A DNA stretch of 64,000 nt from Phycisphaeraceae bacterium (GTDB lineage Bacteria > Planctomycetota > Phycisphaerae > Phycisphaerales > UBA1924): assembly GCA_019636625.1 (NCBI GenBank), contig JAHBXE010000003.1, positions 1 through 64,000 of the forward strand, in the 5' to 3' direction. Of the stretch, positions 1 to 25,812 are shown piece after piece. The position numbers and the translations under genes are program-made. The number at the start of each line of letters is the position of its first letter. Positions within the stretch are counted from its first letter, which is position 1. A model generated the notes under the pieces. The model was not told where the DNA came from and ran no database searches. It saw only the letters and a program-made list of their open reading frames with translations.

Positions 1-88
1 CGCCGGATGCACGTAAGGGCCCAACGCACCGAAGTTGCGAAGCCAACTTCGTTCCAAGTTTCGAGCGAGGAACCTATCTCAACCAAGT

Positions 89-116
89 AAGGGGCCCTCA
101 TTGGCGGGCCCCTTTT
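89..116 (+). terminator. Intrinsic terminator of a gene upstream of the window
   Basis: The arms 89-97 and 106-114 are complementary (AAGGGGCCC / GGGCCCCTT) around an 8-nt loop, and the second arm runs into TTTT. This is a rho-independent terminator reading left to right, so it most likely ends a plus-strand gene just outside the window. Bases 27-52 also contain a smaller inverted repeat (GAAGTTG/CAACTTC). From 117 to about 318 I see nothing I can support. Confidence 0.7.
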
Positions 117-318
117 GTATTCCATCGGAATCCCTCCGGGACTCTCGACCTGCCGCGCAGCCCTTCCGCGGCCTGATAACTCAACGTTCTTGTCCGGATT
201 GGGACGCGAATGTCCTAAAGCCTCACGAACGTCTGTAGCAAGGCAGCAGGCCCGAACCGGATCCACGACCGGGTCGCGCCCGGCCCACGCCGCGGCAGAC
301 CAAACCGTCCTTTTCCAA

Positions 319-23297: not shown

Positions 23298-23856
23298 CGG
23301 CGCAGTTTACGGCCACCCGGCGCGCCCGCCAAGGCGATCGGTGCCCATGGCCTGTGGAACCCACGTAGAACCCCCGATAACTGGTCCCGACCCCATGAAC
23401 CCTCCCCTGCGGGCCCAAGCCAACTCTCTCCCCCCCCCTCCCAACCCCCAACCCCCCGGGGCCTCCTTCCGACAAGAACCCCCGGCCGGTCCCCTTGTGT
23501 CTCGGCCGGGGGCGGTGCCGCGGGACGGTTGGGCTCGTGCCTTCCCGAGCCGCCCCGGGCGATGGACTCGGTCCCGGGCGCATCGGATGGGGTTGGGCAT
23601 CCGGGCCGGCGGGACCGAGGTTGTCCGCGCGGCGAACGTCCACCCTTTTTCAGGCGCTCGCCGCGTCGTTTTCTGGGTGTCGAGACCTTATCACCGGGGG
23701 AGAACACGCACCCGGGCCGGGGAACATCAACCGGCGCCATCCTGTCCGATCGACCCGCGGGGCCGGTTGCAGGAATTCCTGAATTCTCGCTGACGCGGTC
23801 TGAACATGGCGGCGCGGGCAGGCCGGTATGCTGCGCATCGGTCACGGAGAACCGCC
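23298..23856. other. Divergent intergenic region, 559 bp, with a strong hairpin
   Basis: This is the longest gene-free stretch. It contains a run of 9 C at 23430-23438 in a C-rich track, a perfect 10-bp hairpin (23479-23488 with 23503-23512, 14-nt loop), and an overlapping GAATTC palindrome near 23775. The hairpin has no T tract. The open frames here lack conserved features or codon signal, so I call no gene. It must hold the promoters of ybeY and of the gene at 23857. Confidence 0.5.
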
Positions 23857-24807
23857 ATGGAACACGTTTCACGCCGCGACGCCATCAAGTCCACGGGTTT
23901 GCTCGCCGCGGCGGCGGCGATGGGAACCTGGTCGTCACCCGCGCGAGCTCGCCCGGTGCGAACCCGCTCGGTTCGCGTCGCGCACCTGACGGACCTGCAC
24001 ATCCAGCCCGAACGCCGCGCGGATTCCGGTGTGGCGGCCTGCCTGCGTCACGTGCAGGAACACAAGGATGCGCCGGAGCTGCTGCTGCTGGGCGGGGACC
24101 TGATCATGGATGCCTTCGAGGCCGATGATGCGCGCACCAGGACGCAGTGGGACCTGTTCACGCGGACGTTTGAGAATGAATGCCGCATCCGGACCGAGCC
24201 GTGCCTGGGCAACCACGACATCTGGGGGATCAACAAGTCCAAGAGCCGTACCACCGGGAACGAGCCGGGGTGGGGCAAGAAGCGCGCGATGGACCTGCTC
24301 CGGATGGAACGGCCGTACCGCAGTTTCGACTTCGGTGGGTGGCACTTTGTCGTTCTCGACAGCGTGACGCCCCAGGGCAACGCGTACATCGGGAAACTCG
24401 ACAATGAACAGTGGGAATGGCTGGAGGGCGACCTGGCCGGGACCCGGCTGCCCGTGGCCGTGCTCTCTCATATCCCGATTCTCGCGGCGACGCAGCTCGT
24501 CATTCAGCCGAACAAGGACAGCAAGAAGCGAGAGATCAGCGATTCGCTCATGATGACCGATGCCCCACGCTTCGTGGAAACCTTCGCCAAGCACCCGCAC
24601 GTGAAGCTCTGCCTCTCCGGCCACATCCACCAGATCGACCGCGTGGAGTTCCAGGGCGTGACGTACCTGTGCAACGGCGCGGTCAGCGGTAACTGGTGGA
24701 AGGGCCGCTACAAGATGTGCGATGAGGGGTACGCGATGCTCGACTTGCACGCCGACGGCACATTCGAGAGCTCGTACGTGAAGTACGGGTGGAAGGCGGA
24801 GGAATAG
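23857..24807 (+). CDS. Tat-exported calcineurin-like metallophosphoesterase
   Basis: A 316-residue protein. The ATG at 23857 follows a GGAGA site and opens a twin-arginine signal peptide (SRRDAIKSTGLLAAAAA). The metallophosphoesterase motifs appear in order: LTDLHI, GGDLIMD, GNHD, LSHIPI and GHIHQ, giving the usual two-metal site. Tat export implies a folded, metal-loaded enzyme outside the cytoplasm. Likely substrates are phosphomonoesters, diesters or nucleotides; the exact one cannot be told. Its stop is 4 bp from that of the convergent phosphatase gene. An in-frame upstream start at 23806 would hide the Tat signal. Confidence 0.88.
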   Translation: MEHVSRRDAIKSTGLLAAAAAMGTWSSPARARPVRTRSVRVAHLTDLHIQPERRADSGVAACLRHVQEHKDAPELLLLGGDLIMDAFEADDARTRTQWDLFTRTFENECRIRTEPCLGNHDIWGINKSKSRTTGNEPGWGKKRAMDLLRMERPYRSFDFGGWHFVVLDSVTPQGNAYIGKLDNEQWEWLEGDLAGTRLPVAVLSHIPILAATQLVIQPNKDSKKREISDSLMMTDAPRFVETFAKHPHVKLCLSGHIHQIDRVEFQGVTYLCNGAVSGNWWKGRYKMCDEGYAMLDLHADGTFESSYVKYGWKAEE

Positions 24808-24811
24808 GCCG

Positions 24812-25726
24812 TCAGTTCCGCCTATCCCGGTACGCCGCGTGGCACTCCTTGCACGAAGCGGCGACAAGCTTCCATTTGGATTCAAGCTGATCCCTCGGCT
24901 CGCCGCGGATCAATCCATCTTCCAGCGCGGATGTTCTGGCAATCGCATCGGCCAGCCGCGCGGCGTACTCCGGGCCCTTGGCCTGAGACCTTGGGTCCTC
25001 CCCGCTGAAACGCAACTGGTCCGCCAGTCGGCCCGCCTCGGCGGCGGGCACGAGGTCGGGGTGGTCCTTGGGAACTGTCCATCCCGCGGCGCGGATCTCC
25101 TGCAAGTGCTCGTAGGCGTAGTCGATCTCCACCATCGCCGCGACCACCCCCGTCGGCTTTCGCACCGATGGGAACTCGTTGCTTGCCGCGTTCAAGGCGG
25201 ACACCGGGACCACGACCGCCTCTTCCACGCACTGGAACAGACCGGCGTAGCTCGGGGATGTCCCGGCATCCCTCATGAACACCACCCCTTCCGCCGGTGT
25301 GACCAGGCCCAGCGTCACCGCCGCGGCGGCCGTGGCGGCGGGTGAGCGATGCTTGCCGTGGTGGCAGTGGATGTAGACGGGCCCGGGGAGGTCGCGAATG
25401 GCCCGGGCGATTTCGAGCTTCTGCTGCTCGGGCACATCCGAGTACGTAATCGGGATGTGCACGTACCGCATGCCACGGGCTTCGGCCCTTGCCACGTCGG
25501 GCGTCGCCCCGTCCACGGAAATGATCGTCTTGACACCCATGGCCTTGAGTTCGTCAAAGGCGGCATCCCCGGCGGGCACGCCGCCGCTGATGAGGGAGCC
25601 GAGGGTGTGCACGTTCGGGAGAGGCACCTTTGCCGCCTTGGGAGAGGACGTCTCCGCGTGCTTCTGGACACACGCCACGAGAGAGACACTGGCGGCAAGG
25701 GCGAACATCGCGAGACGCGGCTTCAC
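24812..25726 (-). CDS. Lipoprotein: tyrosine-phosphatase-like domain plus C-terminal heme c motif
   Basis: A 304-residue exported protein. A lipobox ends at Cys19 (SLVAC). Residues of about 36-200 are a PTP/DSP-like domain, with the active-site loop HCHHGKHRS (Cys121, Arg127) and upstream IISVDGATP. The C-terminal region (about 205-304) is helical and ends SCKECHAAYRDR, a CxxCH heme-attachment motif placed as in cytochrome c'/c556 proteins. A phosphatase domain joined to a heme domain on one lipoprotein is unusual. The start is GTG, backed by a GGAGGT site. It lies downstream of the oppB-like gene on the same strand, separated by 86 bp. Partner and substrate are unknown. Confidence 0.8.
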   Translation of the reverse strand: MKPRLAMFALAASVSLVACVQKHAETSSPKAAKVPLPNVHTLGSLISGGVPAGDAAFDELKAMGVKTIISVDGATPDVARAEARGMRYVHIPITYSDVPEQQKLEIARAIRDLPGPVYIHCHHGKHRSPAATAAAAVTLGLVTPAEGVVFMRDAGTSPSYAGLFQCVEEAVVVPVSALNAASNEFPSVRKPTGVVAAMVEIDYAYEHLQEIRAAGWTVPKDHPDLVPAAEAGRLADQLRFSGEDPRSQAKGPEYAARLADAIARTSALEDGLIRGEPRDQLESKWKLVAASCKECHAAYRDRRN

Positions 25727-25812
25727 GGGAACCTCCGGACCTCACTGTACCGAACGATCTGGGTTGCGTTGCAAGCCCCGGTGAACTTCCGCCGTGCATC
25801 CGCGAACGACCG

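Follow-up and report, generated by a model that had tools for sequence, protein, structure and literature searches.

A probable planctomycete lipoprotein joining a predicted dual-specificity phosphatase fold to a predicted class II cytochrome c domain

In this study we describe a protein of 304 amino acids, encoded in the window (the whole stretch of DNA that was analysed, 64,000 nucleotides from a Phycisphaeraceae bacterium), which very probably combines a fold of the dual-specificity phosphatase (DSP) type with a class II cytochrome c domain carrying a bound heme. The complete reading, in which a lipid-anchored cysteine phosphatase is exposed in the envelope and functionally linked to a heme c with His/Met ligation, is a tentative one, with a chance that we place a little under even. 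To our knowledge both halves are of known kinds and the combination is not a known one. In the open-access literature searched, no description was found of a heme-bearing DSP or of this planctomycete architecture; each domain is known, and it is their arrangement for which that search gave no precedent.

The gene, its N-terminus and the two motifs

The gene occupies positions 24812..25726 of the minus strand, with a GTG start codon and the stop codon at 24812-24814, while the plus strand of 24812-25726 is interrupted by a stop. A presumed Shine-Dalgarno sequence, GGAGG (25732..25736, minus strand), lies 5 nt upstream of the GTG. The apparent signal at the N-terminus ends in the lipobox L16-V17-A18-C19 (LVAC; 25670..25681, minus strand), in which Cys19 is the presumed lipid anchor. 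Read in this way, the 304-residue product is a probable exported lipoprotein, as an earlier note on this DNA had claimed. The lipobox is less general than the motifs described below, as it was recognized in 84/146 homologues (by a crude pattern, with start sites taken as found). In its own genome the gene is present in a single copy, with one further match at an E-value of 0.017.

The same note had placed HCHHGKHRS at residues 120-128 and CKECH at residues 292-296, and the translation of the minus-strand ORF confirms both (25343..25369 and 24839..24853, respectively, minus strand). The former is a putative P-loop with C121 as the nucleophile and R127 as its arginine, and the latter a heme c attachment motif with His296 as the presumed proximal ligand. 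When the mature protein was randomized 100,000 times, CxxCH arose in 0.13% of the shuffles and HCxxGxxR[STGA] in 0.02%. Chance co-occurrence of the two motifs was considered as well and is ruled out by their conservation in 73 homologues collected independently of the motifs.

Conservation was followed in two sets of sequences. The first comprises 97 distinct sequences, including the window protein, with those identical over the last 150 residues merged; it was partly fetched with patterns containing the motifs. HC..G..R is present in all 97, CxxCH in 96/96 once the one sequence truncated at a contig end is set aside, and M198 in 97/97. The second, motif-independent set consists of 73 distinct homologues after merging, fetched without the motif patterns, 20 of which were chosen for divergence. 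Here C121, G124, R127, M198, C292, C295 and H296 are each kept in 73/73, H120 in 72/73, R300 in 71/73 and W216 in 65/73. C121 and R127 thereby form the CX5R P-loop of cysteine-based dual-specificity phosphatases in every member, and the loss of CxxCH in orthologues, named beforehand as the observation that would speak against the proposal, is not seen. In the divergent member L142 the loop is degenerate (TCETGRDRA), but its Cys and Arg are kept. A scan of GTDB genomes confirmed 167 of 212 candidate stretches as relatives, and 80 of the 167 were kept; its patterns include the motifs and it was therefore left unused for the motif counts.

The two predicted domains

The AlphaFold2 model of the whole chain is a confident two-domain one (pLDDT 94.4, pTM 0.87). 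It was built on an alignment of 58 rows, used also as the family profile and consisting of the window protein and 57 of 67 homologue loci, the 10 near duplicates or truncated loci being omitted. The first domain spans about residues 35-182 (25181..25624, minus strand) and is predicted to have a DSP/PTP fold, which agrees with the tyrosine-phosphatase-like domain of the earlier note. Within the model, residues 1 to 160 superimpose on human VHZ with a Z of 17.0 (rmsd 2.5 Å, 139 aligned), on SsoPTP with a Z of 16.7 (2.2 Å, 141 aligned) and on TpbA with a Z of 15.2 (3.0 Å, 147 aligned). TpbA is the best Foldseek match of the domain (6.9e-6), and two TpbA entries are the best solved relatives by sequence profile (E 5e-9 and 3e-8). 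Among Pfam families, the cut-off of PF22785 (Tc-R-P, DSP-PTPase) is passed narrowly (28.1 vs 27 bits), its name reflecting other members and not the function of the window protein. The window protein scores below the cut-offs of DSPc (PF00782; 16.2 vs 33.5 bits) and of PFA-DSP (PF03162; 11.3 vs 27 bits), the latter although the GKHR loop is common to both.

In the profile alignment Asp105 of TpbA falls on residue 96 of the window protein (25439..25441, minus strand), the general-acid position, which is Ser here and varies among the 73 homologues (D 42, N 17, S 7, A 4, G 2). A conserved general-acid Asp in the WPD-equivalent loop is thus absent from this set. Such an absence does not exclude a phosphatase, because AtPFA-DSP1 works without a general acid: its Lys154, His155 and Arg156 are in contact with the phosphate, and none of its residues serves as a general acid (PMC9038691). 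The unconserved Asp could point to a substrate whose leaving group departs easily. Judged from the model and from its relatives, domain 1 is a putative phosphatase.

The variable general acid could also suit a thiol redox or sulfur-transfer enzyme built on the DSP fold, with Cys121 as a persulfide or in oxidized form and the heme as electron acceptor or donor. We consider this unlikely. It would be in line with the structural match of domain 1 to a DUF442 protein (Z 15.7), with PF04273 being matched by 25 of the 58 members at E<=0.01, with the peroxidase fusion described below and with weak matches to two sulfur-transferase models of NCBIfam, NF040641 (Blh) at 21.6 bits and TIGR01244 at 18.1 bits. 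These two scores, however, lie far below the respective cut-offs of 625 and 85.85 bits, the sequence profile of the domain is nearer to the phosphatase TpbA, and phosphatases without a general acid exist, AtPFA-DSP1 among them.

The second domain, residues 187-304 (24815..25168, minus strand), is predicted to be a class II cytochrome c. Modelled alone, it forms four helices (pLDDT 94.9), so that the C-terminal region has in prediction the four-helix cytochrome fold whose absence the earlier note had set as a refuter, and CxxCH lies near the C-terminus in 73/73 homologues, where this note had expected it from cytochrome c'-type proteins. By sequence profile the domain matches cytochrome c' at 3e-6 and b562 at 3e-3. 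PF01322 is matched by 56 of the 58 members at E<=0.1; against its cut-off of 26.5 bits the window protein reaches 19.1, and the homologues L106 and L047 exceed it with 29.1 and 29.3. Designed repeat proteins, the top PDB matches of the cytochrome profile, were dismissed as artefacts, as no single stretch passes alone. The top structural match is NaxLS (Z 13.2, rmsd 2.7 Å, 106 aligned), along with the cytochrome c' of Shewanella (Z 12.7, 2.5 Å, 104 aligned) and b562 (Z 11.8, 2.5 Å, 97 aligned); the best Foldseek E for this domain is just 0.26, and a Z of about 12-13 for a helical bundle can reflect the common arrangement alone. Because such values can mislead, the cytochrome assignment is carried by the sequence match and the position of CxxCH. 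The genome also encodes a protein for the assembly of cytochrome c (PF01578, E 2e-31).

Met198 (25133..25135, minus strand) is the presumed sixth heme ligand. In sequence alignment with the stand-alone class II cytochromes of the phylum helix A aligns unreliably, and for this reason the assignment rests on the end points of the superpositions (ranges only, internal gaps aside), in which model residues 6..114 lie on b562 1..106 and 5..118 on NaxLS 25..132. Met198, residue 12 of the model, then falls on residue 7 of b562 and residue 32 of NaxLS, and His296 near residue 102 of b562. Met7 and His102 are the axial ligands of b562, and the Cys at position 32 of NaxLS, Cys32 mutants of which are named in PDB titles, is an axial heme ligand too; against this stands one cytochrome c', that of R. 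molischianum, which has a Met at the same position without ligation. An invariant Met at the axial-ligand position favours a six-coordinate, electron-transferring heme, and on the model a His/Met heme appears likelier than an open, gas-binding c' heme.

This weakens the gas sensing suggested in the earlier note. In such a protein a five-coordinate cytochrome c' heme would bind NO or CO and gate the phosphatase. The class II cytochrome c fold and the cytochrome c' structures among the best matches agree with such a sensor, but with Met198 kept in all 73 homologues where b562 and NaxLS carry their sixth ligand we give it only a slim chance. As NaxLS, the closest fold match, is six-coordinate yet binds NO, gas binding by ligand displacement can still be envisaged. 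Redox coupling is favoured over gas sensing.

Distribution, fusions and gene neighbourhood

Of 101 related genomes, with the gene's own among them, 56 gave matches at E<=0.001. The 58-sequence profile matches 199 of 392 sampled Planctomycetota genomes, and in at least 131 of the 392 (a hand count among the matches listed) the match reaches profile position 267 or beyond and so spans both domains. Among the matches listed, 4 more Planctomycetota genomes have shorter ones, ending at 175-245, and the lower-scoring ones cover the DSP half only. Of 201 genomes from the phylum to which an Abditibacteriales MAG belongs, 27 match, 3 of them with the complete architecture including CxxCH, the remaining matches listed there being to the DSP half only. 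Two copies lie on plasmids of cultured species, one annotated 'dual specificity protein phosphatase' and the other 'hypothetical protein'; HCHHGKHRG and CxxCH are present in each.

On the sequences compared, the DSP-cytochrome pairing is retained phylum-wide with both sites invariant, a pattern difficult to account for unless the two are selected together. It also argues against uncoupled domains that are simply exported together, the cytochrome as an electron carrier and the phosphatase as a scavenger of phosphate. The existence of DSP-only relatives and the joining of transporters to the pair in two single cases would be compatible with such an arrangement, which nevertheless seems to us distinctly unlikely.

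Some records deserve separate mention. L165, L166 and L167, from the phylum of L105, are DSP-only relatives with apparent signal peptides and another loop, HCQHGADRTG. Typical family members occur in the MAG records L062, L079, L087 and L094, labelled Chitinophaga, Leptolyngbya, Limnohabitans and Kuenenia, respectively; the relatives of the L087 genome include genomes from the window's own order, and the four labels look wrong.

Beyond the protein's own features, a fusion offers the main clue to function. In 4 genomes of one genus an N-terminal, secreted glutathione peroxidase (PF00255, E 9e-38 to 8e-41) precedes the DSP and cytochrome domains in a triple-fusion chain (L020 1501-3033, minus strand; L022 832-2319, L025 748-2283 and L027 625-2331, plus strand); a fifth genome of the genus (L178) is without the peroxidase. 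A glutathione peroxidase in the same chain indicates thiol/peroxide chemistry.

Two further possible fusions are single cases, each read from DNA. In L172 (915-3272, plus strand) the DSP-cytochrome pair follows a Na+-dependent nucleoside transporter within a single open frame. In L175 (282-2273, minus strand) the frame of a sodium/calcium exchanger continues into a divergent DSP domain, with TCETGRDRA as its loop, and ends in a cytochrome-like part with CTRCH.

No conserved gene partner was found across the neighbourhood analyses (67-80 loci). When the flanking ORFs of 67 loci were clustered, no cluster had members from more than 7 loci; the one of that size was RND efflux, and those following it in size came mostly from close relatives. 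Five window neighbours searched against 80 homologue loci (tblastn, E<=1) gave no match, while the positive control worked. In the Pfam tally of immediate neighbours no family occurred in more than 3/80, the tally having taken 80 of 130 ORFs picked by codon-position GC, a crude picker, with short ORFs, likely shadow ORFs and near-duplicate loci omitted. The neighbours in the window, metallophosphoesterase and oligopeptide-type ABC transporter genes, are not kept beside the homologues. The metallophosphoesterase (23806-24807, plus strand) has a twin-arginine-like signal, and its gene ends 4 bases from the stop of the 24812-25726 gene on the opposite strand. On a plasmid of Planctomyces sp. SH-PL62 (L205 5852-8780) the homologue has a DUF3365 gene and genes for cytochrome c oxidase nearby; a coupling to cytochrome oxidase was considered and set aside, this being a single case.

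Proposed mechanism and comparison with known systems

In the mechanism that we propose, Cys121 would be the attacking nucleophile, and its phosphate target would be bound by Arg127 and by a loop that is strongly basic (His122, His123, Lys125, His126). A single heme would be bound to Cys292 and Cys295, most likely six-coordinate via His296 and Met198. Outside the cytoplasm the catalytic cysteine would be exposed to oxidants, and the heme may either pass electrons that keep or restore the reduced cysteine, or report the local redox state, whereby phosphatase activity would track how oxidized or reduced the envelope is. That the heme is loaded and has His/Met ligation, that the protein acts as a phosphatase, and that heme and active site are coupled are all points that we infer, the coupling being the least certain. 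A bolder version, unlikely if not strongly so, has Cys121 electronically wired to its own heme, with electrons from the envelope respiratory chain switching this cysteine between an oxidized resting and a reduced active form and the fused glutathione peroxidase feeding in peroxide signals in some species; the proteins would then make up an extracytoplasmic, redox-gated family throughout the Planctomycetota.

If heme and active site do communicate, the protein would contain an intrinsic way for a cysteine phosphatase to stay active, or to be switched, in an oxidizing compartment, and electron transport would be linked to dephosphorylation outside the cytoplasm. The DSP-cytochrome family is widespread and present in cultured species, among them Aquisphaera giovannonii (WP_148599161.1) and Rubripirellula obstinata, and can thus be tested directly.

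TpbA (PA3885) of Pseudomonas aeruginosa is a periplasmic phosphatase with Asp105 as the proposed general acid (PMC4409338). The window protein resembles it in being, by prediction, exported, in the HCxxG..R loop (HCKHGNNR in TpbA) and in having it as the best profile and Foldseek match. Unlike the window protein, TpbA has the general-acid Asp, no heme domain and other loop residues after the Gly. The C-x-x-G-K-H-R loop is instead common to the window protein and AtPFA-DSP1, where it comprises C150, K154, H155 and R156. The PFA-DSP phosphatases (AtPFA-DSP1, Siw14; inositol pyrophosphate phosphatases) match the fold with a Z of about 15-16 and, unlike the window protein, are without a cytochrome domain. 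They are intracellular eukaryotic enzymes.

With class II cytochromes c (c', c556) and b562 the second domain shares the predicted four-helix bundle, the C-terminal CxxCHxx(Y/F)R and a Met at the b562 ligand position. Those proteins are stand-alone carriers or gas binders, whereas here the cytochrome makes up the C-terminal half of a protein that resembles an enzyme. Nearest in structure, and from the same phylum, is NaxLS (Kusta0087/0088), which belongs to the anammox planctomycete Kuenenia, but it is a heterodimer of small cytochromes with a Cys at the axial position (residue 32) and no phosphatase domain.
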